Positions 11,089-29,542 of a stretch of 38,772 nt of DNA are shown here, in pieces. The notes beneath the pieces were generated by a model. That model made no database searches and was not told the DNA's origin. It saw only the letters and a list, made by a program, of their open reading frames with translations. The number at the start of each line of letters is the position of its first letter. The stretch's first letter is position 1. Where the stretch lies: positions 1 through 38,772 of the forward strand of contig CAKKSD010000048.1 in the NCBI GenBank assembly GCA_919902995.1, given 5' to 3'. The DNA comes from Thermodesulfovibrionia bacterium. Its GTDB lineage: Bacteria > Nitrospirota > Thermodesulfovibrionia > JACRGW01. Made by a program: the position numbers and the translations under genes.

Positions 11089-12519
11089 TTAAAAAGCCTC
11101 CATCTCTTTTGCCAATTTCCTCTCAGTGTACCAGTTAAAGACCTTAACGCCTAAAAAGGCGCCGCCTACCATGCCGATACCAAATAACCATCCAGACGGG
11201 TTGCCATTTGAAACCCTTATAAAAAAGGCGCCCACATTGCATCCCATGGCAAGCCTTGAGCCTATACCCATAAAGAATCCTCCCAGTATTGCCCAGAATG
11301 CAAGTTCCATTGTCGGCTTCTTCCACTTGAATTCATTGTGTGCAAGCGCCATTATGCAAGCGCCTCCGAGAAGGCCAATTGTCATCCAGTCAGCAGGGTT
11401 AAAAAGCGGATTTGGAATACCGTTGGTGAGTCCAAAAAATATATTATCCATATTTTCAATGCCGAGTTTTTGTGTTACCCAACCTACCCATTGAGCTTCC
11501 TGAGTTGTAACATACCAATATCCAGGGTCAAAAACCGTTCCATTTGCAGTTAAACCAAAGGTATGTCCCATTCTTGTCATAAGCTCGCCAAAATTTTGAA
11601 TCCCAAACTTGACCTGCAAACCCTTCATAACGAACATGTGAAACCCGGCTGCAATACCCAGGACTAAACCTGCGAGAGCCGTTCTCTTTGAAGCTGTTAT
11701 CATGCTCCAGTATCCTGCAACATCGGCCCCGAAGCCTGTGCCTATCCCCTGCCCTGCTGCCATCCTCTTTTTCAAAAAACCTTTCCTCACCCACACGAGA
11801 TAAACCCACACGAGCACGAGTGCAGCCGGTAATATAACACCCACAATTGTGTTCAATAAAAAAGCCCCTACGACAGACTCATCAGGAAACCCAAACATCC
11901 TGGCAAATGTTATATTAGGAAAGTTCCAGACATAGCCGGCAAGGTATTGGTCCATCCAGCCATCACCGACTTTTATAATTGCAGGCAGCCCTTTTGATAC
12001 AGCTGAATCATGCCAGGATTGCGGGACAAGTTTGTTAACCCAGTCGCCGCGAATAGCCACAAAGACCGACTGAGTAATACTGATTGATAAAAGAACTAGC
12101 ATGGCAGCGCCACTGCCCTCTCCTGATTTGTATAGAGAACCTGATGCGCACCCGCCGGCTAAAACCATTCCGAATCCGAAAAAACCCCCTGCTATGACCA
12201 TAAAAAACCCAACTGGCGCCGCGTGGAAGGTGCTCATCTCTGTTGAAGTTACAATAGATGAAACAAAAGCGAAGAATATCATGGATATCATGATACCCAC
12301 AACCATCCTCGGAACCCCTACAGCGAAGAGGTCTCTAAAAGCCGAAGAAAAGCAAAACCTTCCATACTGCAGGCACATCCCGTAGATAACCCCAAACCAT
12401 ACGTAGGCCGCGATATAGATATAGTAGTCATTAATAAGATAAGTCGCTACGGTGGCCAGAGAAAGGAATGCAATTACCATAAACATCCTTTTTTTGTTCT
12501 TTTGCTCCCATGCTTCCAT
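11089..12519 (-). CDS. YeeE/YedE (TsuA-like) sulfur-compound permease
   Basis: A polytopic protein of 476 residues. I prefer the ATG at 12519 because AAGGAGG lies 8-9 nt before it; the ATG at 12525 is only 2 nt from that site. It has the duplicated YeeE/YedE architecture with cysteine-containing signatures GMCLQYGRFCFSSAFRDL, MVLAGGCASGSLYKSGEGS and, near the C-terminus, GIGSRLAMGCNVGAFF. In TsuA these cysteines line the path for thiosulfate. An insertion of about 100 residues in the middle is predicted to be periplasmic or interhelical. With the adjacent TusA gene it most likely imports thiosulfate or another sulfane-sulfur donor. Some YedE relatives serve selenium metabolism instead; no selenium genes are seen here. 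Confidence 0.88.
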   Translation of the reverse strand: MEAWEQKNKKRMFMVIAFLSLATVATYLINDYYIYIAAYVWFGVIYGMCLQYGRFCFSSAFRDLFAVGVPRMVVGIMISMIFFAFVSSIVTSTEMSTFHAAPVGFFMVIAGGFFGFGMVLAGGCASGSLYKSGEGSGAAMLVLLSISITQSVFVAIRGDWVNKLVPQSWHDSAVSKGLPAIIKVGDGWMDQYLAGYVWNFPNITFARMFGFPDESVVGAFLLNTIVGVILPAALVLVWVYLVWVRKGFLKKRMAAGQGIGTGFGADVAGYWSMITASKRTALAGLVLGIAAGFHMFVMKGLQVKFGIQNFGELMTRMGHTFGLTANGTVFDPGYWYVTTQEAQWVGWVTQKLGIENMDNIFFGLTNGIPNPLFNPADWMTIGLLGGACIMALAHNEFKWKKPTMELAFWAILGGFFMGIGSRLAMGCNVGAFFIRVSNGNPSGWLFGIGMVGGAFLGVKVFNWYTERKLAKEMEAF

Positions 12520-12705
12520 CGTCATTACCTCCTTGCAGATTGATTAAGGAATTATTGTAAGAATCATAAGCGCCAATAAAATATTTTAAACCCTTAGGGT
12601 TAATAAAACTAAAATTAAAGTTGATGAAATTAACATGAGGTTTCCAAAAAGTCAATAGTAATTATCCCGGATCTTTGCTGGATGCACAGGAAATTATGCG
12701 AGATC

Positions 12706-13836
12706 TCAGGGATTTTTTAAAGAATCAAAACTGAAGACTAATGCACTGATATCTTCTTTAGTTTTAAGGGTAGAGGCTAATTTCTCTACCTCTTTCTTTT
12801 CCTCGAACTTACCAACCAGCACCTTATGGATCTTCTCATTCCCGACTGTTACGCTATGGACAAAGGATTCATAACCTTTTCCCTTGAGCCTCTTCATAAG
12901 GGCATCCGCATTATCCATATTCTTGAAGGCGCCGACCTGTACTGAATAAAATGGTTTTTCTTTAGCCGGGGCTTTCTTTGCAGGCTCTTTTGGAGGCGGC
13001 TCAATGATTATCTTTGGTGTCTCTGTTGATAGAGGTTCCTGATCCCGGGGTTTAGCAGGAGGTTTTGGTTCGGAGATAAGTTCCTTCTTTGGCACAGGGG
13101 TTGTAGCCTTTACAGGCAGTTTTTGTTTTATATTCTTGAATATGGTTTTGAACTCGATCCCGCCTCCCTGCCAGAGCAGAAAACTTGCTGCTGAGATTAT
13201 AAGGACTGTTCCGACTCCTATTATTACAGGCAAATTGGATCTTTTCTTTTCAAGGACGATCTTTCGGTTCTTCTCTACAGGATTGTTCTTCTTCAGCTCA
13301 AAGGACCTTTCGATAAGATCTTCGACCTTTTCATAAGGAGGCACACTATTTGGTGTCACCCTGAATACAGAAGGCATTTCCTCGGATTTCTCCGCAGGGA
13401 TATCAATTGGTTCTGATTCTGTTGCTTCGTATTCATGGATATTTGTTATCCCTGCATGTGCCGTTTCAGTGATTCCCCTTATACTAAGTACTGTCTCTAC
13501 CTTAAGGGCCAGCTCCTCTGGGCTGAAGGATTTATCGAGGGTATCTATGATGCCGTACTCTGCGCCATAGCGCATCTTTGGGCCCTTTTCCGGCGAGGTA
13601 AGGGCTATAATCGGGGTCTTTGAGAACTCTCCGATACTATGAATATTTTTAGATATCTCGAGACCGCGGGGCATCGAGAGGCTTACAAAGATAAAGGATG
13701 GGTCTGTCTCCCTTGCGGTGGTTATTGCCAGGGACTCTGTAGGTGCTATGAATACAAGATAGCCTTCCGCCCTTAATACCTCTTCGATCTTTCGGGTTAT
13801 TTCAGGGTCGTTATCTATTACAAGGATAGGATTCAT
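12706..13836 (-). CDS. Pseudo-receiver - transmembrane - SPOR domain protein
   Basis: The 376-residue protein joins three parts. Residues 1-118 are a CheY-like receiver (ILVIDNDPEITRKIEEVL, PIIALTSPEKG, DKSFSPEELALKVETVL) in which the phospho-acceptor aspartate is Ser52 (FVSLSMP); the acidic pocket and K102 remain. Residues 202-222 are one transmembrane helix, followed by a Pro/Lys-rich linker. Residues 295-375 are a SPOR domain (YSVQVGAFKNMDNADALMKRLKGKGY), which binds denuded septal peptidoglycan. Topology implies receiver in the cytoplasm and SPOR in the periplasm. It lies 6 bp after the MamK-family gene and two genes after an amidase that makes denuded glycan, so I infer a link between a cytoplasmic filament and the wall. 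Confidence 0.8.
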   Translation of the reverse strand: MNPILVIDNDPEITRKIEEVLRAEGYLVFIAPTESLAITTARETDPSFIFVSLSMPRGLEISKNIHSIGEFSKTPIIALTSPEKGPKMRYGAEYGIIDTLDKSFSPEELALKVETVLSIRGITETAHAGITNIHEYEATESEPIDIPAEKSEEMPSVFRVTPNSVPPYEKVEDLIERSFELKKNNPVEKNRKIVLEKKRSNLPVIIGVGTVLIISAASFLLWQGGGIEFKTIFKNIKQKLPVKATTPVPKKELISEPKPPAKPRDQEPLSTETPKIIIEPPPKEPAKKAPAKEKPFYSVQVGAFKNMDNADALMKRLKGKGYESFVHSVTVGNEKIHKVLVGKFEEKKEVEKLASTLKTKEDISALVFSFDSLKNP

Positions 13837-13842
13837 TTTTTT

Positions 13843-14868
13843 TCACATCTCTGCCCAGTATTTTTCAGGGATATCCTTGGCTAATAACATAGCTCCATCG
13901 GAGACAACAAAAAGAGGGTCTTCAACACACCTCACATCGCAATCTCCAAACTCTTTTAATGCATCTTTTATGTAATTATCTATGCCTCTTATCTTACTGC
14001 CCCCTCCTGAAAGTATGATATTGTTCTTTATCTTTATCTGAAATTCCGGGTCAAATTTTGCAATCATTTCAGATGTCGTCTCGATTATGGCTGGAAGGAT
14101 ACTTTCGCAGGCGCGCCTCATCTCGTTCGTTATATCATGATTCAAAGGTTTCCCTTCAACCGGAATCTCTACCTTAATCGTCTCACTGCTATCACCAACA
14201 AAGCTATGCGTCTCTTTAAACTGACGAACCATGTTCCTGTTGAATCTGGAATTTGGGTATTTCTCAATAAGATAACTGAAGAGCTGTTCATCTATATAAT
14301 CACCTGCGGTTAGTATCGCCTTCTGGTCGTCATTATCAGGAATTGTGCCATGCATCATACAGAAGTCAACAGTCCCTGCACCGATATCTATTATAAGTGA
14401 ATTACCTAAAAGATTAAGGCCATAGGCCGCAGCAAAAGGTGCTGATACTACCATAACGGAATCAACAAACCCTGACACTGCCTTCTTGATAGCAATTTGA
14501 TTTACCTTCATGGCATCTGCTGGAACACCAACTATTGCATAAATTTTTTGATCTTCCTTCGGTCCTGCAAGTTGTATCAGATATCCTATCAGTTCCTTAA
14601 CTGCTTCCTCATTCCTCTCGATTCCTTCCTTTATCACACCTCTTTCGAGTGGTCTGTATAGATCAAGAGAAAGCCTATTCTGTAATGCCTCAGAACCAAA
14701 AAGGATTGATTTCCCTACTACCTTAGCTGCTATAAAGTCCTTTGGCCAGCCAACATAACTCTCATTCCATTTCTTTGTCCCATTACTTGCTGAGATTGAA
14801 CTCCTCGATGTCCCGAGGTCAACACCTACGAACAGGATGTCATCCTTCCTCTGTTCTTTTTGCTTCAT
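13843..14868 (-). CDS. mamK-like: MamK-family actin-like filament protein
   Basis: A 341-residue actin-fold ATPase matching MamK in length and motif spacing. Phosphate-1 loop GVDLGTSRSS (15-24), VGWPKDFIAAKVVG (39-52), phosphate-2 loop IIDIGAGTVDF (159-169), adenosine motif IILSGGGSKIRG (284-295), and a C-terminus FGDCDVRCVEDPLF...IPEKYW that closely parallels MamK. The residue equal to the catalytic Glu143 of Magnetospirillum MamK is Ala143 (VVSAPF), while Asp161 is kept. MamK filaments position magnetosomes, but no other mam gene is in the window. Start overlaps the amidase gene by 29 nt, and the SPOR gene follows after 6 bp, so this looks like an envelope-linked cytoskeletal operon. Distinction from MreB is by overall motif match; a MamK-like paralogue is the likeliest reading. 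Confidence 0.82.
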   Translation of the reverse strand: MKQKEQRKDDILFVGVDLGTSRSSISASNGTKKWNESYVGWPKDFIAAKVVGKSILFGSEALQNRLSLDLYRPLERGVIKEGIERNEEAVKELIGYLIQLAGPKEDQKIYAIVGVPADAMKVNQIAIKKAVSGFVDSVMVVSAPFAAAYGLNLLGNSLIIDIGAGTVDFCMMHGTIPDNDDQKAILTAGDYIDEQLFSYLIEKYPNSRFNRNMVRQFKETHSFVGDSSETIKVEIPVEGKPLNHDITNEMRRACESILPAIIETTSEMIAKFDPEFQIKIKNNIILSGGGSKIRGIDNYIKDALKEFGDCDVRCVEDPLFVVSDGAMLLAKDIPEKYWAEM

Positions 14869-20019: not shown

Positions 20020-20035
20020 TGTCACCCATGTGACA
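20020..20035. promoter_or_regulatory. Palindromic operator 1, upstream of the PhnD-like gene
   Basis: TGTCAC and GTGACA form a perfect 6-bp inverted repeat around CCAT. A TATTTA hexamer (20068-20073) begins 32 bp after the palindrome, which would put the dyad centre near -52. The same outer half-sites and spacing occur at 23580-23595. The form suits a Crp/Fnr-family dimer, and such a regulator is encoded between the two sites. Confidence 0.6.
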
Positions 20036-20106: not shown

Positions 20107-20940
20107 ATGAGAAAGATATTGATGGTTTGTTTATTTTTGATTTTAGTAATGGCCCCAGCAATGGGGATCGCTGCAGAAATAAAGTTTGGTTTGCTTCCGA
20201 GACTTCCTGAAAAACAGTTGATCGAAATGTTTACCCCATTGGCTAAATACCTTGAGAAAGAGACTGGGATGAAGGTTACTTTAGTAATCCCAAAGGATTT
20301 TGATACCTATACCAAACAGGCAATAGCGGGTGATTTCGATATTGGATTCACAAACCCCAACATTTATATTACTGTAAAGAAAGCAAGCCCTCAGGTAGAA
20401 CCGTTGGCTTTAGCCTCTGAACCAGGGCCAGGCACTAAATTAGTAGGAGTTTTTATAACGCTTGCAGACAGCCCGATAAAATCAATCAAGGAACTCAAAG
20501 GCAAAAAAATCAGCTTTGTTGATGTAGGCTCTGCTGCCGGCTATGTTGCCCAGATGCTGGAATTGGAAAAGGCCGGTATCAAAAAAGATGATATCAAGAT
20601 CGAATTTGCAGGAAAGCCTCCAAAGGTGGGTGAAGCTGTGAGGGATGGAAAGGCAGATGCTGGTGGTATGCCAGAGCCTGTCTTTAAGAGACTGCCTTTC
20701 GAGTATATGCTTAAGGTAATCGGTAAAACCGCACCCCTACCTAATTGGCCTATGCATACAACTAAGAAGACTGATAAGGCAGTAGCCGCAAAGGTAAAAG
20801 AGGCACTTCTGAAACTAAAACCACTTACAGCAACTGCCGAACGTGCCCTGAAAGACGCTAACCTTGAGGGATTTGTTCCGACAACTGATAAGGATTTTGA
20901 CATAATGAGGGATGCTGCGAAGGCAGCAGGAGTTTTCTAA
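20107..20940 (+). CDS. PhnD/PtxB-like periplasmic oxyanion-binding protein
   Basis: 277 residues: a Sec signal peptide (residues 1-23, ending GIAA) and a two-lobed binding protein of the phosphate/phosphite/phosphonate type. Typical motifs are IKFGLLPRLPEKQLIEMFTPLAKYLEKETGMKV, GDFDIGFTNPNIYI, SPIKSIKELKGKKISFVDVGSAAGY and VRDGKADAGGMPE. Family members bind small oxyanions or organophosphonates for an ABC permease, yet no ABC ATPase or permease is nearby; the next gene, 69 bp on, encodes an SLC13-like permease. It may feed that carrier or act as a sensor. The ribosome site AAAGGAGAAAGGT precedes the ATG. The substrate is unknown; sulfur or phosphorus oxyanions are both plausible. Confidence 0.82.
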   Translation: MRKILMVCLFLILVMAPAMGIAAEIKFGLLPRLPEKQLIEMFTPLAKYLEKETGMKVTLVIPKDFDTYTKQAIAGDFDIGFTNPNIYITVKKASPQVEPLALASEPGPGTKLVGVFITLADSPIKSIKELKGKKISFVDVGSAAGYVAQMLELEKAGIKKDDIKIEFAGKPPKVGEAVRDGKADAGGMPEPVFKRLPFEYMLKVIGKTAPLPNWPMHTTKKTDKAVAAKVKEALLKLKPLTATAERALKDANLEGFVPTTDKDFDIMRDAAKAAGVF

Positions 20941-21009
20941 TGTCTTGGAGAATTAGGAGATTTTATCAGTTAGAGCGGAGTCCTCAACTAATATGAGGAG
21001 GGAAAGATT

Positions 21010-22503
21010 ATGGAAGAGAAGAGTCAAAATGAAGCAACATTAGAAGAAAGAATGAAGGCTATAGAAGCTGCAGAGGAAGAAGAGGTAGGAAGCCCTAAGA
21101 AGGCGACTATCGGGTTAATCATCGCCTTTGCGATTCTACTGGCATTACATTTCGGACCTACAATCCCAGGCCTGAGACCAACATCCCAGTCTGTATTAGG
21201 CGTTTTCCTCTGGTTCATAACAATAATGGCCACGGATGCCCTTCCAAAGGCTATTGTAGGATTTGCATCTCCACTTCTACTTGTGATTTTTGGCGGAGTA
21301 AAAATACCAGCAGCCTTTAAGGCCTTTACCACAGATGTTTTTTTCTTGGGTGGTGGTGCCTTTGTGATTGCAGGTATAATGATGGGCACGCCCCTCGGCA
21401 GGAGAATCGCCCTTACAATAACTACTGCGATGAGGTCAAATCGTGTGACAAGGATACAGACAGGACTCGGGTTATCAGATATTGCAGTAGGTGGTGTCCT
21501 TCCAACTGTTTCTGAAACTGCCCTTTTCCTTCCTGTCACAAAGGCTATCACAACATTGATGAGAGGGAGAGAGCATTTGCCAGAGGCAAAGAGGATAAGT
21601 ACCGCAATGTTACTTCAGACCCCAGGCTTGACGCCACTTTTCACAGGCACTCTGATACTGACAAGCCATTTCCCAAATATCATGCTCGCAGGTCAACTAA
21701 AGGAGGCAAAGGGAATATATATATCATGGCTTGACTGGTTATGGCTGAATTTACCCCTCTGGGGTCTGCTTCCTATAATGTTCTTTTATGTCTTTTCCTA
21801 CTTCAAATTATGGAAACTCGATATTCCTGGTGCTGAAGTGGAGATACCGAAGATGAAGAAAGAGTTAGGGAAGATCACCTGGCCTGAGATATGGGGATTG
21901 ATATGTATAGGTCTTGGTCTTGCCTTATGGATAACAGAAGATCTCCATAAAATAAAATCAGGTATGACCGCCCTGATTATAGCAACATTACTATTTATGC
22001 CCTGGGGCAGGATTAATTTCAAGAAGGTAAACAACCATATCATGTGGGATACCTGGGTGCTTCTTGGCGGAGCGATTTCCCTCGGCTCGGTACTCTATGA
22101 TGTGGGGACTGTTAAGTGGCTTTCAAATATGGTTGTAGAGCCGATTAAAGGTATGGGTCTACCGACCTTATTAATGATGTTTGTCCTTGTGTTTGCTATG
22201 CATATAGCGAGGGCCGGGATCGTCAGTGCTGTGGCAATGGGTGCTGCATTCATTCCTATAACAATCAGTATGGCAGAATCCTTCAGTCTTAATGTATTGC
22301 CCTTCTCGCTGGTTGTGATAAACTGCTTGAGCTATGCCTTCTTCCTGCCTATATCCATTACAGCATTCCTCATTGCCTGGGGTGCGTCTGGTGCCTCTGG
22401 CTGGACAGCTGTCAGATTTGGGACAATACTTTCGATTATTAGTAATATCTATGTTATAGTTGTGCAGACCGCCTGGCTTGCATTGATAGGCTATCCTCTA
22501 TAG
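21010..22503 (+). CDS. SLC13/DASS-family anion permease with altered SNT motifs
   Basis: 497 residues, with a charged N-terminal cytoplasmic tail (1-30, rich in Glu) and about 11-12 membrane segments in the two-repeat layout of DASS/CitT transporters. In the family each half carries an Ser-Asn-Thr motif that binds sodium and the substrate. Here the first half reads GGVLPTVSETALFLPV, so SNT is S168-E169-T170, and the second half reads ARAGIVSAVAMGAAFIPI with no SNT. Ion coupling or substrate choice may thus differ from classic sulfate or dicarboxylate carriers. It follows the PhnD-like gene in the same unit and is closed by a strong terminator. Confidence 0.82.
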   Translation: MEEKSQNEATLEERMKAIEAAEEEEVGSPKKATIGLIIAFAILLALHFGPTIPGLRPTSQSVLGVFLWFITIMATDALPKAIVGFASPLLLVIFGGVKIPAAFKAFTTDVFFLGGGAFVIAGIMMGTPLGRRIALTITTAMRSNRVTRIQTGLGLSDIAVGGVLPTVSETALFLPVTKAITTLMRGREHLPEAKRISTAMLLQTPGLTPLFTGTLILTSHFPNIMLAGQLKEAKGIYISWLDWLWLNLPLWGLLPIMFFYVFSYFKLWKLDIPGAEVEIPKMKKELGKITWPEIWGLICIGLGLALWITEDLHKIKSGMTALIIATLLFMPWGRINFKKVNNHIMWDTWVLLGGAISLGSVLYDVGTVKWLSNMVVEPIKGMGLPTLLMMFVLVFAMHIARAGIVSAVAMGAAFIPITISMAESFSLNVLPFSLVVINCLSYAFFLPISITAFLIAWGASGASGWTAVRFGTILSIISNIYVIVVQTAWLALIGYPL

Positions 22504-22541
22504 GACCTTCTTAAAGCCATTCAATTTCGTTTAGAAAATTT

Positions 22542-22575
22542 ATATTAGGGGGCGAAAGCCCCCCAATATTTTTTC
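22542..22575 (+). terminator. Intrinsic terminator after the permease gene
   Basis: GGGGGC-GAAA-GCCCCC (22548-22563), extended below a single A-C mismatch by ATATT/AATAT pairs, is followed by TTTTTTC. This is a strong Rho-independent terminator ending the PhnD-SLC13 unit. The 359-bp gap 22504-22862 otherwise holds the repeat at 22669-22736 and the promoter of the regulator gene. Confidence 0.9.
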
Positions 22576-22668
22576 TTTCACAATTTCCTGAGAATTTATA
22601 TTCCCAGAAGTTACCCTGTTAGAGTATCGTAATAACCCTCCGAGAAAATCATTTCCAATTCCGTGATT

Positions 22669-22736
22669 GTCATTCCCATGAAAATGGGAATCCAGCTTCT
22701 TTTGTCTTTCTGGATTCCTGCTTCCGCAGGAATGAC
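22669..22736. repeat. Dispersed palindromic repeat (REP/MITE-like)
   Basis: Outer ends GTCATTCC and GGAATGAC enclose two hairpins, TTCCCAT-gaaa-ATGGGAA and GGATTCCTGC-ttcc-GCAGGAA, joined through TCCAG...CTGGA. It is the same class as block 3 of the cluster at 2406-2571. Confidence 0.75.
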
Positions 22737-22803
22737 GACGAGAAGATCAAAATGCATAATAGTTATCACGGAAAAGGTAATGCTTACCCCTCCGAGAAAA
22801 TTC

Positions 22804-22832
22804 TTGAGACTTCTTTAATATAGTTCTATAAT
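22804..22832 (+). promoter_or_regulatory. Promoter of the Crp/Fnr regulator gene
   Basis: TTGAGA (22804-22809) and a perfect TATAAT (22827-22832) are separated by 17 bp. The start would be about 22839, giving a short leader before the TTG start codon at 22863. No TGTC-N8-GACA site is visible here, so the regulator does not seem to control itself through that motif. Confidence 0.7.
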
Positions 22833-22862
22833 AAAAAATGTATTTGTAAAGCGGAGGGGCCT

Positions 22863-23552
22863 TTGGAGAAAAAATGGCATTTAGATAGAATCGATGTATT
22901 AAAGGAGCTGTCAGAGGAGGATAGGGCATTTCTTATGAAGAAGGCGATAAAGAAAGATTTCGAAAAAGGGTGCTGCATCTTCATGAGAGGTGACCAGGGG
23001 AATACTATATTTCTTATACACAAAGGGGTTGTAAAAATTTATGACCTTTCTGAAAGCGGAAAAGAGTCAATTTTCTGGTTTCGCTATCCAGGAGAAGTCT
23101 TTGGGTTGGCTGAGGTATATGGGGGAGGAGTTCGGATGTGCTATGCTGAAGCAGTAGAACCTACTTCTGTATTCGTTATCAGACGGCATGTCCTTGAAGA
23201 ACTTCTGCAGAGAAATCCGAGAATAGCCCTGCTGATAATAAAGATTCTAAGTGCCAGGCTGAGGCGGTTGGGGGAGGCTTTTAAGACATTATCGGTTTAT
23301 GATTTGAGATCTCGACTGGCACTACTTTTACTTAATCTCGGGAATATATGTGGCGTTGAAAACTCTGACAAGATAACTATCGAAAAGAAATTTACTCATC
23401 AGGATATGGCAGATATGATAGGCGCTACCCGTCAGAGGGTTACAGAGGCGTTAAATAACTTTTCAAGGGACGGCTTAATCAAATGTGACAGCAAAAAAAT
23501 AATTCTTCTTGACCCCAAAAAACTCTCATCAATAATCCCCACTTTAGAATAA
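22863..23552 (+). CDS. Crp/Fnr-family transcriptional regulator
   Basis: 229 residues from a TTG start with GGAGGGG in good position. Residues about 10-120 form a cyclic-nucleotide-binding-like sensor (EKGCCIFMRGDQGNTIFLIHKGVVKIY, FRYPGEVFGLAEVY). The cAMP-contacting Glu and Ser are not conserved (GLAE; VRMC), and there is no N-terminal FNR cysteine cluster, so the signal is unknown; C37, C38 and C93 might be relevant. Residues 174-210 are the Crp helix-turn-helix HQDMADMIGATRQRVTEALNNF, whose recognition helix (TRQRVTE) differs from both CRP and FNR. It sits between the permease unit and the aprA-like operon, each preceded by a matching palindrome, so it probably controls both. Confidence 0.88.
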   Translation: MEKKWHLDRIDVLKELSEEDRAFLMKKAIKKDFEKGCCIFMRGDQGNTIFLIHKGVVKIYDLSESGKESIFWFRYPGEVFGLAEVYGGGVRMCYAEAVEPTSVFVIRRHVLEELLQRNPRIALLIIKILSARLRRLGEAFKTLSVYDLRSRLALLLLNLGNICGVENSDKITIEKKFTHQDMADMIGATRQRVTEALNNFSRDGLIKCDSKKIILLDPKKLSSIIPTLE

Positions 23553-23579
23553 ATTATCCTGATATTTCCCAACATATTA

Positions 23580-23595
23580 TGTCCTCTAAAGGACA
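23580..23595. promoter_or_regulatory. Palindromic operator 2, upstream of the aprA-like operon
   Basis: TGTCCT and AGGACA form a perfect inverted repeat around CTAA. TATATT (23628-23633) begins exactly 32 bp after it, as at operator 1. Both sites share TGTC-N8-GACA, indicating the same DNA-binding protein. Confidence 0.6.
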
Positions 23596-23690
23596 GATTA
23601 TTTCATACCAATTAAGTTAAATAAAGGTATATTCTTCGCACGGGAAAATCTCATATAAAAGTAACTAAATTAAAAGGGGGGATGAGGACG

Positions 23691-25523
23691 ATGGAAAAAA
23701 GGCTTCCGAAAAATATTAAGGAAGTAGAAGAGGTCAGGATTGAGACTGACCTGCTTATTGTCGGTGGAGGCAATTCAGGATGTTTTGTTGCTATAGAGGC
23801 AAAGGAGAAGAACCCGGATCTTGATGTGACAATTATAGAGAAGGCACATATTGACAGGAGCGGCGCTTTGGCTGCTGGAATGGATGCTATCAATACCTAT
23901 ATTGGTGAGGGCGAAACTCCAGAAACACTTGTTGCCTGGAGCAGGGCGCAAGTAGGCGGTGGGCCTTTAAGAGAAGACCTCGCACTGGGCAATGCCAAGA
24001 TATTGAATGGGTGTGTAGAGTCTTTAGAAAAGTGGGGCGTGCCTTTTATAAAGGATGAAAAGGGAAGGTATAAGAAAAGAGGAAGGTTTGATATATCGAT
24101 TCGTGGAGAGCAATTGAAGCCTATCATTGCGGAGAAGGCAAAGAGTTATAATCCAAGGATATTGAACAGGGTTACTGCAACAAATTTCATCAAAGATGGC
24201 GACAGGGTCATTGGCGCTATGGGTTTTGGTGTGAGGGATGGTAAGTTCTACATAATAAAGGCAAAGGCAACAGTTGTTTCAACAGGAGGTGCAGCAGGTC
24301 TATACCGATCACCAACCAATGATGGTACTACATCACATCACCAGATGTGGATGTGTCCCTTCAATGTAGGGTCAGGCTATTCCATGGGGATAAGGGCCGG
24401 TGCTGAATTCACACTCATGGAGCAGAGATGGTGTGCTGCGAGGGTAAAAGATTTTACTGGTCCTGTTGATACAATATCTGTAGGTTATAAGGCAAGGATG
24501 ATTAACAGCAAAGAAGAGCTTATTCTCCAGAAGAGATACAGTCATCTTGGTGGAGATACAGCTCCGCGCTACATAAGGGCTAATGCACCTATGGGAGAAT
24601 GGAATGATGGCCGTGGACCGACCTATGTGGATACAAGACACCTCTCTCCTGAGCAGGTGAAGGAATTAAAGATAGATTATCTTAATGAACGACCAACATA
24701 TGTCCTTTTCCTTGCGGCAAGGGGTCAGGACCCTGCCAAAGAGCCATTAGAGATATACGGAAGCGACCCTTATATCGTAGGCGGGCATACCTCAAGCGGC
24801 TACTGGGTTGACATAGACAGGATGACAACATTAAAGGGTCTTTTTGCTGCCGGTGAATGTGCAGGAGGTATGCCAAACAAGTTCGTTGGTGGCTGTGCTG
24901 CAGAAGGTGTCCTTGCAGCGAGGGGATCACTGAAGTATATTTCAGGTGTAGGCCATGGGAATATCAATGAGGAACAGGTTGCCGCTGAAAAACAGAGGGT
25001 ATTTGGACCCTTGTTTAAGGGGTTGAATATGGAGGCTAAGTATAATATACCTTCCGGACAGGACCCGCGCTGGCAGTATGACGGTATTACCCCTGAAGAG
25101 ATGGAAGAGAGGCTGCAAAGGCTAATGGATGAATATACAGGTGGCGTAGGGCAATTCTTTAGATGTAATGAGGAACAACTAAACTACGCCATCAAGCATA
25201 TAAAGATTATGAAAAAACAGGTGGAGAGACTTTTTGCCAATGATCTTCATAATCTCGTGCTTGTTCATGATGTTATAGATCGTCTGGATGTTTCTGAGGT
25301 TGTTGTGATGCATCTCAGAGAGAGAAGGGAGACCAGATGGCCGGGATGGCAGACGAGGACAGATTATCCTGATAAAAATCCAGAACTCGACTGCTTTATA
25401 AACTCAAAAAAGAATCTCAGTACTGGAGAGATTGAGATGACTAAGAGACCCTATGAACAGATACTGCCGGGAGACAGAACAAAGTCCCCATCTCCTGTAC
25501 CGCTTTCAGTTGAGAAGGCATAG
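23691..25523 (+). CDS. AprA-like flavoprotein (divergent adenylylsulfate reductase alpha family)
   Basis: An FAD protein of the fumarate-reductase/AprA superfamily. I prefer the ATG at 23691 (ribosome site GGGGGG 9 nt before) over 23682; the first reads 610 residues, the second 613, and the numbers here use the longer form. FAD-binding LLIVGGGNSG (24-33), then DRSGALAAGMDAINTYIG, KWGVPF, IRGEQLKPIIAEKAK, GGHTSSGYWV, RMTTLKGLFAAGECAGG and ETRWPGW...RTDYP align block by block with AprA. Residues recalled as lining the APS site of Archaeoglobus AprA appear kept: N71, W223, R249/R254, R299, H369. It is about 30-50 residues shorter than classic AprA. It heads an operon with AprB-, HdrA-, HdrC- and HdrB-like genes. 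The substrate may be APS/sulfite or another adenylated or small anionic compound. Confidence 0.85.
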   Translation: MEKRLPKNIKEVEEVRIETDLLIVGGGNSGCFVAIEAKEKNPDLDVTIIEKAHIDRSGALAAGMDAINTYIGEGETPETLVAWSRAQVGGGPLREDLALGNAKILNGCVESLEKWGVPFIKDEKGRYKKRGRFDISIRGEQLKPIIAEKAKSYNPRILNRVTATNFIKDGDRVIGAMGFGVRDGKFYIIKAKATVVSTGGAAGLYRSPTNDGTTSHHQMWMCPFNVGSGYSMGIRAGAEFTLMEQRWCAARVKDFTGPVDTISVGYKARMINSKEELILQKRYSHLGGDTAPRYIRANAPMGEWNDGRGPTYVDTRHLSPEQVKELKIDYLNERPTYVLFLAARGQDPAKEPLEIYGSDPYIVGGHTSSGYWVDIDRMTTLKGLFAAGECAGGMPNKFVGGCAAEGVLAARGSLKYISGVGHGNINEEQVAAEKQRVFGPLFKGLNMEAKYNIPSGQDPRWQYDGITPEEMEERLQRLMDEYTGGVGQFFRCNEEQLNYAIKHIKIMKKQVERLFANDLHNLVLVHDVIDRLDVSEVVVMHLRERRETRWPGWQTRTDYPDKNPELDCFINSKKNLSTGEIEMTKRPYEQILPGDRTKSPSPVPLSVEKA

Positions 25524-25594
25524 GGATAAAATAGAAGTACTGTGTACAGAACATATCAAAAGTTATTAAGCCAAGTCTATAGAGGAGGAAGATT

Positions 25595-25921
25595 ATGCCG
25601 CCTTATGTATTGAAAGATAAATGTGATGGATGTAAAGGAAAAGATGAACCCCTCTGTGAGCAGATCTGTATTGGTGACCTTATGACACTTGATCACGTTA
25701 CGGGCAGGGCATACTGCAGGTCATTGAGAGACTGCTGGGATTGCATGTCATGCACAAAGATATGTCCAAAGGGAGCAATTGAGCAACGGATACCTTATCA
25801 GCTTGGATACCATGGTGCAAAGCTGATCCCGATGATTGGCACTGACTCAATAACATGGACCTGTGTAGATATCGACGGCAAGGTAGAACGTTTCACATAC
25901 CGTACGAGAAATAAAAAGTAA
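25595..25921 (+). CDS. AprB-like two-cluster ferredoxin, lacking the C-terminal tail
   Basis: 108 residues with eight cluster cysteines arranged as in AprB: C10, C13, C21, C25 and C47, C50, C53, C57 (CDGC...CEQIC; CWDCMSCTKICPKGAIE). W48, next to the cluster ligand, matches the Trp that in Archaeoglobus AprB lies on the electron path to FAD. The domain after the clusters (LIPMIGTDSITWTCVDIDGKVERFTYRTRN) also matches AprB, but the protein stops there. Canonical AprB goes on for roughly 40 residues that wrap around AprA. It should pass electrons between the AprA-like flavin and the HdrA-like subunit encoded 16 bp downstream. The start ATG has AGGAGGAAG 6 nt before it. Confidence 0.85.
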   Translation: MPPYVLKDKCDGCKGKDEPLCEQICIGDLMTLDHVTGRAYCRSLRDCWDCMSCTKICPKGAIEQRIPYQLGYHGAKLIPMIGTDSITWTCVDIDGKVERFTYRTRNKK

Positions 25922-25937
25922 AAGGGCGGGTCACTAA

Positions 25938-28208
25938 GTGGAAGAGGAACAGAAGATAGGAGTATACCTCTGTACCTGCGAAGGGGAGATTGACAGGGTA
26001 ATTGATATCGATTCGATTGCAAAGGATGTATCTGATCTGAAAGGGATAATAACCGTTCAGAAGGATTCATATCTGTGTTCAGAGAATGGTGTCCGTAAGA
26101 TCAGGGAGGATGTAGAAAAACTCGGGCTTGAGAAGATACTGATAACTGCCTGCTCCCCCTTTTTGAAAGAAAGAGAATTTTCTAACCTCGGCATAAACAG
26201 TTTCCTCGTCGAACGTGTGAATATAAGGGAGCAGTGCAGTCGTGTTCATACTGACAGACCTGATTCTGCCACTAAAAAAGCCAAAAATGTATTGGCAGTC
26301 TCTCTTGAAAAACTGAAATATGCAATTCCAATTCATCCTTTGAATGTTCCTGTTATAAGGAGCGTACTTGTCATCGGTGGAGGTGTGGCAGGGATAAATG
26401 CAGCAGTTGATATAGCAAAAACAAAAAACGAGGTCTTCCTTATCGAAAAAAATCCCTTTCTTGGAGGAAAGGTGGCAGAGCTCAATAAATACTATCCACG
26501 GATGTGCCCTCCATCCTGCGGTCTTGAAATTATGTTTTCAGAGATAAGGAATAACCCCTATATCCGTGTCATAACCTCTTCAATAATAGATACAGTCATC
26601 GGCTCACAGGGTAACTTCGAAGTATTGATTAAGACACACCCAAGGCATATCGACGAAAATAAATGCATACTCTGTGATAGATGTATCAAGGTATGCCCCA
26701 GAAATTCGATTGTTTACCCAAGAGGTTTCTCATACCCGGCTGTCCCTGCAATACAGAGAGGTCTTTGTAATAAGGATTGCAGGTTATGTATTGATGCCTG
26801 TCCGGTAAATGCTATAGACCTTGATGAAAAAGAGAAAGTAGGCAATCTTAAGGTTGGATCCTTTATTGTCGCAACAGGGTGGGAACCCTATGATCCAACA
26901 CATATCACAGAGTTAGGATATGGGAGATTAAAAAACGTTTTGACAAATCTTGATCTCGAGAAGGTTTTTAGGGAACAGAAGATAATCTACAGAGACCCTA
27001 AGAAAGTAGCATTTATCCAGTGTGTCGGTAGCCGTGATGAAAGGTATCTTTCTTATTGTTCTGATGTCTGCTGTATGGTGAGTATCAAGCAGGCATTAAC
27101 ACTTAAAGAGATAAATCCGGATAATGAGATATACATCTTTTATAATGACATCAGAACACCTGGTGAATATGAAGAACTGTATCAGAGGGCGCGAAGGAGC
27201 GGTGTGATATTTATTAAGGGGATTCCCTCTGAATTAAAAGAGGGTGAGACCGGGAAGGTCAGTTTTTCTGTATTCGATACTATTGCAGGAGAAAGAATTG
27301 ATTACGCCTTTGACTTAGCAGTCCTCGCAACAGGGATGAAACCATCAGAAAGCAATATGGAATTGAAGGAAAAGATCGGTATCCCTTTAAGCAAAAATAA
27401 TTTTGTTGAATCACATCTCCAGTGTTATCCACAGGATACACAGAGAGAGGGAATATTTAGTGCAGGCACATGCCGTGCACCAATGGATGTCTCGAGGTCA
27501 ATAGAGAGTGCAGGAACTGCTGCAGTAAAGGCGATCCAGTTTTTTAATAGTACCGTAGAGATAATCCCTGATCATCCTGTTGTGAATAAATTGAAATGCG
27601 ATGTCTGTAAACGGTGTATTGAGGAGTGTCCCTTTAAGGCGTTTTCCCTTGATGAGAAGGGATTTCCTGAGGTGGATATCCCAAAGTGTAGAAGATGCGG
27701 GATATGCCTGGGAAGCTGTCCTCTTACTGCGATCTCATTCGGAAGTCTTTCGATAGAACAGTTATCAAGTATGTTTGATGCAATAGATAAATCTTATCTG
27801 GGAGATGATGAGCCTATAGTCCTCGGTTTCTTATGTAAAAACGATGCATACAGGGCTGTGGACGATGTCTCTTTGAAAGGGATAAGTTATCCGCAAAATT
27901 TTTTAGGCATTATGGTACCCTGCGCTGGTACAGTCAACGGTGTGGTTGTCGCACAGGCGATTTCTTCAGGGATTGATGGTGTTTTGGTTGCAGGTTGTCC
28001 AGAAGATCAGTGCCATTATGTTAAAGGAAGTGCTTTGGCAAAAGTCAGACTAAAAGATGTATCTGATAAACTAAAGGAGATGTACCTGGAGCCAGAAAGG
28101 GTACGTTTCGTCAGTATAAGTAGAGATGAACCTGAGAAATTTGCTGACACTGTGAATGAATATGTGAAGGAATTAAAGATTATGGGAAGAAACCCCTTGA
28201 GGATTTAA
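25938..28208 (+). CDS. HdrA-MvhD fusion (QmoB-like) electron-transfer flavoprotein
   Basis: 756 residues from a GTG start. Order of parts: N-terminal HdrA domain (1-135, KIGVYLCTCEG), FAD Rossmann motif VIGGGVAGINAAVDIAK (145-161), a cysteine pair CPPSC (190-194), two [4Fe-4S] motifs (243-253 and 277-288), a second FAD segment ending FSAGTCRAPMDVSRSIESAG (507-526), two more [4Fe-4S] motifs (554-564, 584-594), and a C-terminal MvhD domain with C633, C662, C687 and C692. This is the QmoB layout. HdrA proteins carry out or support flavin-based electron bifurcation; MvhD links them to hydrogenase or formate dehydrogenase. Here it joins the AprAB-like pair to HdrCB. Spacing is 16 bp before and 2 bp after. 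Confidence 0.9.
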   Translation: MEEEQKIGVYLCTCEGEIDRVIDIDSIAKDVSDLKGIITVQKDSYLCSENGVRKIREDVEKLGLEKILITACSPFLKEREFSNLGINSFLVERVNIREQCSRVHTDRPDSATKKAKNVLAVSLEKLKYAIPIHPLNVPVIRSVLVIGGGVAGINAAVDIAKTKNEVFLIEKNPFLGGKVAELNKYYPRMCPPSCGLEIMFSEIRNNPYIRVITSSIIDTVIGSQGNFEVLIKTHPRHIDENKCILCDRCIKVCPRNSIVYPRGFSYPAVPAIQRGLCNKDCRLCIDACPVNAIDLDEKEKVGNLKVGSFIVATGWEPYDPTHITELGYGRLKNVLTNLDLEKVFREQKIIYRDPKKVAFIQCVGSRDERYLSYCSDVCCMVSIKQALTLKEINPDNEIYIFYNDIRTPGEYEELYQRARRSGVIFIKGIPSELKEGETGKVSFSVFDTIAGERIDYAFDLAVLATGMKPSESNMELKEKIGIPLSKNNFVESHLQCYPQDTQREGIFSAGTCRAPMDVSRSIESAGTAAVKAIQFFNSTVEIIPDHPVVNKLKCDVCKRCIEECPFKAFSLDEKGFPEVDIPKCRRCGICLGSCPLTAISFGSLSIEQLSSMFDAIDKSYLGDDEPIVLGFLCKNDAYRAVDDVSLKGISYPQNFLGIMVPCAGTVNGVVVAQAISSGIDGVLVAGCPEDQCHYVKGSALAKVRLKDVSDKLKEMYLEPERVRFVSISRDEPEKFADTVNEYVKELKIMGRNPLRI

Positions 28209-28210
28209 TA

Positions 28211-28657
28211 ATGCAGAACGGTTTTTTTGATTTTGAAAAAGAGGGATTAAAATACTGTTACTACTGCGGTAAGTGCTCTTCGGGATGCGAGGTTAACAGG
28301 CTTGAGAGTTCATTTCAGCCTCACAGAATCCTCTATTTACTGAACATCGGCATGACGGATAGTGTGATAGGAGGCGATGATATTTGGAAATGTACCACCT
28401 GTTTTACATGCTCTGAGAGGTGTCCGCAGGGGGTCAAGGTCACCGAGATTATATGGTTTGCGAGGACGATGGCTGTTAAGTCAGGTCATCTACCTGAATT
28501 GATAATGCATCAGAAAGAGACATTATTAAGAACAGGCAGACTTCATCATATAAGTCACATAGACAATAATAAGAGGGGAAAAGTGAAACTTCCTCAACTT
28601 ACAGATGCTTCTTCTCTAATATCAGAGATATTCAAAATGACAAAGGGGGACGAATAG
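28211..28657 (+). CDS. HdrC-like iron-sulfur subunit
   Basis: 148 residues with two cluster motifs, C16, C19, C22, C26 (CYYCGKCSSGCE) and C61, C64, C67, C71 (CTTCFTCSERCP), in the HdrC arrangement with the intervening FQPHRILYLLNIGM helix. The first motif ends in CE rather than the usual CP. There are no membrane segments, so this is soluble HdrC, not the HdrC-HdrE or QmoC type that reaches the quinone pool. It begins 2 bp after the HdrA-like stop and is followed by hdrB after 6 bp. Confidence 0.92.
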   Translation: MQNGFFDFEKEGLKYCYYCGKCSSGCEVNRLESSFQPHRILYLLNIGMTDSVIGGDDIWKCTTCFTCSERCPQGVKVTEIIWFARTMAVKSGHLPELIMHQKETLLRTGRLHHISHIDNNKRGKVKLPQLTDASSLISEIFKMTKGDE

Positions 28658-28663
28658 GCGGTA

Positions 28664-29542
28664 ATGAGATACGCCTTTTATATCGGCTGTACAGTACCTG
28701 TCAAGGCCTTAAAATACGAAGTATCAACAAGGAACCTCGCAAAGGGCCTGGGTATAGAATTGGTTGATATCCCTGAATTCGGCTGTTGCGGTTACCCTGT
28801 TAAATCGATGGATATGTTTGCTGCCCTTCTAATGTCAGCACGTAATCTTGCCCTGGCAGAGGAGAAAGGCATGGACATAATCGGTATCTGTATAGGATGC
28901 ATGGCAACACTTTCTGAGGCAAAAAAATATCTTGAAGACGATAATCTGAGGAATACCATCAATCAAAAACTAAGGGAACTGGGGATCAGAGAATACACAG
29001 GCAAGGTAAATATCAAACACCTTGCGAGGTTTTTATACGAAGATTACGGCCTCTCGTCTATAAAAGAAAAGATTATCAAACCTCTGGAGTCTTTAAAATT
29101 TGGTGTCCACTATGGCTGTCACTATATGAAACCGGGTCATGCCTATGATTACTTTGATAATCCCTCAAAACCTGTTACCCTCGATATACTCACAGATATT
29201 ACAGGGGCAAAGACTATAGATTATCAGAACAAGAATCAATGCTGTGGTCTTACGATTATGGGGACTGCGAAGGATCTCAGTTTCAGACTTGCATCCGAGA
29301 AGCTCGTGTGTTTATCCGGTATTGATATTGATGCAATGTTGCTTGCCTGCCCATCCTGCTGTATTGCCTATGAAAATAACCAGAGGCTGGTGGGAGAAAA
29401 AACCGGGAAGAAATTTAACCTACCTGTTCTTTATTTTACTCAGGTAATCGGGCTCGCAATAGGATTGGATGAGAAAGATCTGGGTTTTGAGTTTAACAGG
29501 GTAAGGGCAGATAGGATTATAGAAAAGCTCGGACCTTATTGA
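28664..29542 (+). CDS. HdrB-like CCG-domain subunit
   Basis: 292 residues containing both CCG (DUF224) motifs that hold the unusual non-cubane [4Fe-4S] clusters of HdrB: C9, C41-C42, C76, C79 (GCCGYP; CIGC) and C152, C193-C194, C229, C232 (QCCGLT; CPSC). All ligands appear present, so heterodisulfide- or disulfide-type chemistry is possible. In methanogens the site reduces CoM-S-S-CoB; in bacteria the substrate of such HdrB proteins is mostly unknown. It is the last gene of the aprA-like operon and converges on glnD with only 3 bp between stop codons. Confidence 0.93.
   Translation: MRYAFYIGCTVPVKALKYEVSTRNLAKGLGIELVDIPEFGCCGYPVKSMDMFAALLMSARNLALAEEKGMDIIGICIGCMATLSEAKKYLEDDNLRNTINQKLRELGIREYTGKVNIKHLARFLYEDYGLSSIKEKIIKPLESLKFGVHYGCHYMKPGHAYDYFDNPSKPVTLDILTDITGAKTIDYQNKNQCCGLTIMGTAKDLSFRLASEKLVCLSGIDIDAMLLACPSCCIAYENNQRLVGEKTGKKFNLPVLYFTQVIGLAIGLDEKDLGFEFNRVRADRIIEKLGPY

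Follow-up and report, generated by a model that had tools for sequence, protein, structure and literature searches.

Why should a bacterium that already carries canonical sulfate-reduction genes keep a second, different enzyme of the adenosine 5'-phosphosulfate (APS) reductase superfamily, set beside a transporter and a regulator of its own? This question is raised by positions 20107–29542 of a 38,772-nucleotide stretch of DNA (the window), which is contig CAKKSD010000048.1 (C48) of a Thermodesulfovibrionia bacterium of the phylum Nitrospirota (assembly GCA_919902995.1, 2.01 Mb in 69 contigs). This part of the window is filled by eight intact, co-directional open reading frames (ORFs) on the plus strand. 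An earlier note on this DNA had read them as a PhnD-like binding protein, an SLC13-like permease, a Crp/Fnr regulator, AprA-like and AprB-like subunits, an HdrA-MvhD fusion, HdrC and HdrB, and this order and the coordinates were borne out. We call the enzyme subunits AprA2 and AprB2. In this study, we found that the module is real and conserved, and no description of a module joining AprA2 to an importer was met in the open-licence literature searched. We believe that this second copy of the enzyme probably releases or handles sulfite from some imported compound.

The block is an addition to the sulfate pathway of its host, not a substitute for it, because sat–aprBA–qmoABC lies on contig C55 of the same genome. 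There, sat, aprB, aprA and qmoC each scored above their NCBIfam cut-offs, and two HdrA-like ORFs between aprA and qmoC were read as qmoA and qmoB by their position. The idea that AprA2 stands in for a missing sulfate pathway is thereby ruled out. The statement of the earlier note that sat and qmoC are missing is right for the block but not for the genome, and the contrast that it drew with classic sulfate reducers applies to the block only. C55 also holds a membrane pyrophosphatase ORF, and dsrA was found above its curated cut-off on contig C10. A second, divergent dsrAB-like pair was seen on another contig of this genome (G000:C40; locus L217, 7294–9533), the alpha subunit scoring 330 bits (under the TIGR02064 cut-off) and the beta subunit 380 bits (over the TIGR02066 cut-off); alpha matches resembling it also occur in G001 and G003, two further genomes with AprA2.

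AprA2 (23682–25523, plus strand) is the FAD subunit, and AprB2 (25595–25921, plus strand) is a short ferredoxin subunit with two [4Fe-4S] clusters. AprA2 scored 599.8 bits against the broad model NF005331 (adenylyl-sulfate reductase alpha, cut-off 557) and 391.2 bits against the dissimilatory model TIGR02061 (under its cut-off of 641.75), and AprB2 scored 92.4 bits against TIGR02060 (under 135.65). The canonical AprA of the same genome gave the reverse pattern, with 895.6 bits for TIGR02061 and 352.2 bits for NF005331. The identities to the AprA2 of the window were 30–38% for canonical rows (33% for the genome's own canonical copy) and 45–51% for a related tier found in Sat-AprBA operons of other Nitrospirota. 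The AprA tree, made with a quick method and SH-aLRT support only, held 97 rows, of which 43 were AprA2, 40 related-tier, 13 canonical and one SdhA. The AprA2 rows needed one label change, and the 13 canonical rows formed one group with a support of 100. The AprA-like protein, for which the earlier note had suggested such a tree, lies outside that group. Judged by sequence, AprA2 is a separate clade of APS-reductase-like proteins.

The nearest solved structure is 8a8o, the alpha subunit of a 3'-phosphoadenosine 5'-phosphosulfate (PAPS) reductase, which came first in the sequence search of solved structures (E 2.8e-146), ahead of the APS reductase of Archaeoglobus fulgidus. A structure model of AprA2 built from a 72-row alignment (A3, which holds 72 of 93 sequences, namely the window AprA2 and 92 others) had a mean pLDDT of 87.9, compared with 56.6 for a poor earlier model from ten AprA2 sequences. 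The fold search with this predicted structure gave TM-scores (query/target) of 0.86/0.94 for 8a8o_A and 0.89/0.85 for 1jnr_A, with the same order of E-values as in the sequence search.

The residues of AprA2 were compared in A. fulgidus AprA numbering, mapped by pairwise alignment with that protein and by MAFFT alignments. On the flavin side, N74, W234, R265, R317, H398, K447 and F448 were retained in all 43 AprA2 rows, and the first five of these are presumably catalytic. At positions 145, 261, 274, 277 and 278, the 43 AprA2 rows all read DWDSV, the 13 canonical rows all read QFGFL, and none of the 40 related-tier rows had DWDSV (the commonest set there was NYGAL, in 21 rows). AprA2 has R141, as do all 40 related-tier rows. 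For most of the other nucleotide-side residues, we assume the roles that they have in the A. fulgidus structures. Because the flavin-side residues are kept and the nucleotide-side residues are changed, we read AprA2 as an enzyme that would retain flavin–sulfite chemistry on an altered donor site, and a neofunctionalised APS-reductase-like enzyme would be the best reading. A fumarate-reductase-like enzyme was also considered. The position aligned with an Arg of the SdhA-like protein (one sequence), which we take to be the substrate-binding Arg of the GANRLG motif of fumarate reductase/succinate dehydrogenase, is Lys in 43/43 AprA2 rows, and this replacement rules the candidate out. Each of the eight cluster cysteines of AprB2 was retained in 51 or all of the 52 loci, and 51 loci have a Trp that corresponds in position to Trp42, the electron-transfer residue of 8a8o (in the consulted passages of PMC10322725).

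Is this arrangement peculiar to one genome? Neighbouring families were counted with tblastn anywhere within 8 kb on either side of AprA2, at loci that were picked by AprA2 similarity and not by neighbourhood; the 52 loci correspond to 53 AprA2 genomes minus G414, which was counted as a genome and its region left out, and they include near-duplicate genomes (e.g., L013, L014, L140 and L141). AprB2 was near AprA2 in all 52 loci. Among the 41 loci whose upstream sequence spans 3.5 kb or more, a DASS or TctA permease was found in 40 (exception L166) and a Crp/Fnr gene in 40 (exception L164). In L166, a TauE/SafE gene lies directly upstream in place of DASS/TctA, according to Pfam on hand-picked ORFs. 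TctA with TctC was near five loci, alongside DASS in L053 and replacing it in L171, L173, L175 and L176 (assigned by Pfam on three of these proteins), and a PhnD-like match was near 9/52 loci only. The importer and the regulator, which the earlier note had counted as parts of the system, are conserved partners in three phyla, and the block, which recurs in these phyla, is more than chance. A sulfotransferase-family gene was seen near the module in L053 (2486–3625, PF13469), L161 and L162.

Sat, by comparison, was near 1/52 AprA2 loci (L019, on the opposite strand), while it was near 17 of the 18 related-tier loci. The same 18 loci had Rrf2 in 11 and HdrA in four (the match in L220 is probably QmoB), and no DASS, TctA or Crp match was found in them within 8 kb on either side. 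The earlier note had suggested a search for genomes in which these families occur without sat and qmoC; Sat adjoins a single AprA2 locus, and 50 of 53 AprA2 genomes have Sat matches. In L058, which belongs to another Nitrospirota class, an ORF at 11693–14131 beside AprBA and Sat encodes a NIR_SIR sulfite/nitrite reductase with a C-terminal TusA; judging by this ORF, the sole one tested, related-tier enzymes seem to be APS (or PAPS) reductases that are supplied by Sat and are in part assimilatory. In three loci of the Desulfofundulus class (L177, L221 and L219), a related-tier AprA is followed by an HdrA-type protein and then by Sat, with canonical AprBA and Qmo genes after these in L221 and L177. 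The related-tier AprAB of these three loci is a third AprAB kind, and it may be wired to a single HdrA.

The HdrA-MvhD fusion (25938–28208, plus strand, GTG start) would be the FAD and Fe-S electron-transfer hub of the module. It aligns with bifurcating HdrA over residues 3–615 and with MvhD beyond, ending in an FlpD/MvhD domain, and its HdrA FAD and Fe-S (cysteine) motifs are present; its best NCBIfam match was NF040770 (641 bits, under the cut-off of 1100). HdrC (28211–28657, plus strand) is soluble, as the earlier note had proposed. None of its 19-residue segments exceeds 1.6 in hydropathy, whereas six do in the QmoC of the same genome, and it scored 59.7 bits against the QmoC model NF038018 (under 300). 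HdrB (28664–29542, plus strand) likewise keeps both cysteine-rich CCG motifs. The soluble Hdr complex is not a constant part of the module: HdrA was common (30/52 loci, or 27/46 among those with at least 4 kb downstream) and HdrB was near just 11. By group, HdrA was found in 9/9 Nitrospirota, 13/23 Bacillota and 8/20 Desulfobacterota-group loci, and HdrB in 8, 0 and 3, respectively. Hdr wiring is thus common but optional.

The suggestion that the Hdr complex might be bifurcating was not supported as stated. The window HdrA has the equivalent of HdrA K409, but so do the genome's own QmoA and QmoB, and this Lys was therefore dropped as proof of bifurcation. The N-terminal CxC of HdrA is absent from the proteins of G003 and G129 and from those Desulfobacterota-group proteins that were examined. 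Hypothetically, HdrA-MvhD may bifurcate electrons. Bifurcation would be a better fit for a low-potential acceptor, for example thiosulfate, than for APS. In two Nitrospirota loci, a chromate-transporter-family gene adjoins HdrB (L052, 15164–16381; L053, 3757–4926).

The permease (21010–22503, plus strand, PF00939) is a DASS/SLC13-family anion permease, with 172.6 bits against TIGR00785 (under its cut-off of 198.6), and no other TIGR00785 match at E ≤ 1e-10 was found in the window's genome. It is a member of an AprA2-associated clade: in a midpoint-rooted tree, from which the L209 sequence was left out, 17 AprA2-linked DASS proteins grouped in a single clade, and 16 others from nine AprA2 genomes, which are a part of the remaining DASS matches, fell outside it. 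Two of the 16 lie about 13 kb or less from canonical aprA in G373. Two SNT motifs typify the DASS di-/tricarboxylate carriers. At these positions, the window-type permease reads SET and SIT, the second AprA2-linked type carries an Arg in the first motif, and the AprA2-linked DASS proteins, in these alignments, are without the SNT motifs of dicarboxylate carriers.

The PhnD/PtxB-like periplasmic binding protein (20107–20940, plus strand, PF12974) has a hydrophobic, signal-like N-terminus, and its closest solved structure is the phosphite-binding PtxB (E 1.5e-20). A PhnD-like gene lies directly upstream of the SET-type permease in the window, L053, L161, L162 and L168; in L052, Crp and an ABC transporter are upstream of the same DASS type instead, and L010 and L163 run into contig ends. 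This pairing could mean a binding-protein-dependent DASS transporter. Elsewhere in the window, 11089–12525 encodes a sulfur transporter of the YeeE/YedE type (PF04143), and 758–1735 encodes a TauE/SafE protein.

The Crp/Fnr-family regulator (22863–23552, plus strand, TTG start) is accompanied by an operator-like palindrome, TGTC-N8-GACA, which resembles the CooA site. The motif occurs three times in the window, all within the module locus: as TGTCACCCATGTGACA at 20020–20035, 87 bp 5' of the binding-protein gene and 125 bp from a divergent AsmA-like gene; at 22410–22425, within the 3' end of the permease gene; and as TGTCCTCTAAAGGACA at 23580–23595, 102 bp 5' of the aprA2 start. This compares with 0.37 expected, and 0/100 shuffles reached three. 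Over all loci, the motif was upstream of 17/125 AprA2, DASS, PhnD or Crp genes and of 7/602 other genes (Fisher 4.5e-9, with mechanical ORFs as gene starts and relatedness ignored). We found no sign that the module shares the regulation of the canonical cluster, a possibility raised in the earlier note, and the motif was absent from contig C55 (35 kb). The dsr stretch of C10 has one such motif, inside the second dsr ORF. FNR- or CRP-consensus sites with fewer than two mismatches were not found in five intergenic stretches. Between the DASS and Crp genes, at 22672–22733, two perfect short inverted repeats resemble a small repeat element.

An AprA2 was called at over 850 bits with alignment A1; the G129 copy was split in two hits (534 and 416 bits), and its aprA2 (L053, 8992–10712) lies in two overlapping ORFs, by a frameshift or an assembly error. 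AprA2 was found in 53 genomes of Nitrospirota, the Desulfofundulus class of Bacillota and Desulfobacterota: in 9/345 genomes of the window's phylum, in 24/113 genomes of the class of Desulfofundulus thermosubterraneus (G347), in 18/395 of the phylum sample of a Desulfocapsaceae metagenome-assembled genome (G350), and in G349 and G351. The search of the last phylum used an E-value limit of 1e-120, which hides most canonical AprA, and the co-occurrence counts come from separate searches. A canonical AprA over the cut-off was found in 47/53 AprA2 genomes and as split halves in two more (G403 and G421), and none was found in four (G001, G411, G550 and G779). Sat was found in 50/53 (47 over the cut-off; none in G001, G003 and G411), and a dsrA match in 52/53 (49 over the cut-off; none in G384), the single dsrA match of G001 being of the divergent second type. 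In the G347 class, canonical AprA was over the cut-off in 21/24 genomes with AprA2, compared with 49/89 others (Fisher p 0.004, relatedness ignored). The hosts include two type strains, D. thermosubterraneus DSM 16057 and Desulfovirgula thermocuniculi DSM 16036. The APS reductase of D. ruminis is given as single-copy in the part of PMC3569383 consulted; in G409, taken as D. ruminis, we found AprA2 plus canonical AprA. The presence of dsrA in 52/53 hosts suggests that the module belongs to Dsr-bearing organisms and that sulfite is its product or substrate.

How might such a module work? The reading that we prefer, and to which we give a little less than an even chance, is that the locus is a regulated module, accessory to sulfur respiration, in which AprA2B2 releases sulfite reductively from an imported anion and so supplies DsrAB. 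A dedicated importer, here the DASS permease with the PhnD/PtxB-like binding protein, would take up a small anionic sulfur compound, for which organosulfonates and S-sulfonate or thiosulfate-like compounds are the candidates. AprA2B2 would be a soluble FAD/Fe-S enzyme with APS-reductase-like ancestors, acting on a donor other than canonical APS: reduced FAD would attack the sulfonyl sulfur, a flavin–sulfite adduct would form, and the sulfite released would pass to DsrAB. Low-potential cytoplasmic carriers would supply the electrons by way of HdrA-MvhD (with HdrC and HdrB) in loci that have these proteins, and a different donor would do so elsewhere. The Crp/Fnr regulator would turn the module on through the TGTC-N8-GACA sites, separately from the canonical sat-apr-qmo cluster. 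The gene content, its conservation, the clade, the changed pocket positions, the co-occurrence with dsrA and the motif were observed, whereas we infer the reductive direction, sulfite as the product, a physical complex of these proteins and the pairing of regulator and sites.

Several results weigh against this reading. The sole characterised near relative, 8a8o, reduces PAPS, and HdrA was not found near 22/52 loci (19/46 with enough downstream sequence). Within the pocket, S277 by itself is not special (4/40 related-tier rows have it), and the kept R317, the mild change of L278 to V and the change of E141 to R, which is common to the Sat-linked tier, do not conflict with nucleotide binding. 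The AprA2 split had a support of just 62 in a tree with a very long SdhA outgroup branch, and the related tier was not one group, needing two label changes because 7 Bacillota rows joined canonical AprA (a join that the program flagged as possibly false). Since Sat matches occur in 50/53 genomes, APS is nearly always available. The co-occurrence with sulfate-reduction genes comes partly from sulfate reducers being common in these groups, as is seen from the 49/89 class members without AprA2 that have canonical AprA. Finally, the transporters do not fix the substrate, because characterised sulfate transporters of other bacteria, and candidates in sulfate reducers, belong to the DASS family (PMC5840216, relevant passages).

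The main rival, which we consider somewhat unlikely, is that AprA2B2 is a second APS reductase isoform, reducing APS from Sat elsewhere in the genome with sulfate imported by DASS, and used under other circumstances, such as a shortage of sulfate or an electron supply from ferredoxin or H2 through Hdr and not the quinone pool. The Sat matches, the DASS sulfate transporters and candidates just cited (PMC5840216), and the passing of NF005331, a model named for adenylyl-sulfate reductase alpha, all agree with it, as do the related-tier AprA with Sat in 17/18 loci and the order of related-tier AprA, HdrA-type protein and Sat in L177, L219 and L221. What speaks against an isoform is the invariant DWDSV of 43/43 rows, the near absence of Sat beside AprA2 (1/52), the separation of the linked DASS clade from the two DASS near canonical apr in G373, and the replacement of DASS by TctA/TctC in four loci and by TauE in one. 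That last case, a gene of the sulfite-exporter family directly upstream of AprA2 in L166, would rather fit an oxidative direction, in which AprA2B2 oxidises sulfite with AMP or another acceptor, electrons exit through Hdr, and the transporter handles sulfite, sulfate or thiosulfate in disproportionation or sulfite detoxification. Dissimilatory APS reductases are described as reversible in the consulted part of PMC10322725, but according to the same passages the relative 8a8o had no measurable reverse reaction, and in some loci the binding proteins close to the permease argue for import; we find this direction improbable.

The rank of 8a8o as nearest solved structure, by sequence and by fold E-value, and the sulfotransferase-family gene near three loci (L053, L161 and L162) bring in a PAPS reductase as in Methanothermococcus, which would supply sulfite for assimilation or recycle PAPS. 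In the consulted passages of PMC10322725, Q145 is said to clash with the 3'-phosphate and is replaced in 8a8o, and K120, R121 and S122 are proposed as the PAPS (3'-phosphate) residues of that enzyme. In AprA2, the K120 place is basic (R/K) in 35/43 rows, but the R121 place is W/F and the S122 place is D in 43/43; this Asp would oppose a 3'-phosphate, and we regard a PAPS reductase as very improbable. Least probable of all, with only a slight chance, is a non-sulfur oxyanion enzyme, for example one that oxidises phosphite with AMP to ADP, analogous to sulfite and AMP giving APS. This idea came from the likeness of the window's binding protein to PtxB among solved structures, and it was weakened because the STS loop and His of PtxB, which we take to be its ligand-site residues, read SAA and Pro in the window protein and a PhnD-like match is near just 9/52 loci; the dsrA match in 52/53 hosts points to sulfur instead.

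On the most far-reaching reading, to which we give somewhat less than an even chance, the module may be a new entry to sulfur respiration: an APS-reductase-fold flavoenzyme, not using APS, would reductively cleave an imported sulfonyl compound in the cytoplasm, fed by a soluble HdrA-MvhD where present and spread over Nitrospirota, Bacillota and Desulfobacterota. Such an entry-point enzyme would have been overlooked because family models file AprA2 as APS reductase. APS reductase serves as a marker of sulfate reduction, and a conserved paralogue with a changed pocket and an importer of its own, in genomes that mostly (47/53) have the canonical enzyme, means that marker counts can mislead; the AprA2 hosts may respire another sulfur compound. 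Because AprA2 occurs in type strains, the question is directly testable.

Known systems share parts of this module. Divergent AprA paralogues as such are already known, since AprA-like paralogues are reported for archaea in the consulted part of PMC7174415; type II Qmo and AprA-like genes are covered in that of PMC10504309, and further background was taken from parts of PMC12054007, PMC10734219, PMC12998232, PMC5165239, PMC6018796 and PMC6129605. The PAPS reductase of Methanothermococcus thermolithotrophicus (8a8o), which works in an assimilatory pathway with APS kinase (PMC10322725, in part), resembles AprA2 as its nearest solved relative by sequence and fold E-value, with R at 141 and F277 lost. 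It differs in its assimilatory pathway and in being without the DWDSV set in pairwise alignment. The dissimilatory AprAB of C55 shares with AprA2B2 the alpha/beta architecture, the FAD-side residues and the fold. AprAB-QmoABC is unlike the module in that AprA2 is 30–38% identical to canonical AprA, under TIGR02061 and different in its pocket, and the module block is without Sat or QmoC.

In the QmoAB-HdrBC arrangement of Gram-positive sulfate reducers, HdrA-family and HdrB/HdrC proteins also lie beside AprAB (PMC10504309 and PMC4759654, relevant passages). That AprAB, however, is the canonical one, adjoins Sat and is served by two Qmo proteins, whereas in the module one HdrA-MvhD lies with a different AprAB beside an importer. 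The Sat-AprBA operons of other Nitrospirota classes carry the AprA of the next tier, 45–51% identical to the window AprA2; unlike AprA2 loci, they have Sat in 14/14 loci and Rrf2 in 11, with no DASS, TctA or Crp match. Methanogen HdrA2 (type Ia HdrA-MvhD) has the same domain order, HdrA then MvhD, with NF040770 as the best match of the window protein. The module protein differs from it in scoring under the NF040770 cut-off, in showing no evidence of F420, and in having an Apr-like enzyme as its gene neighbour.

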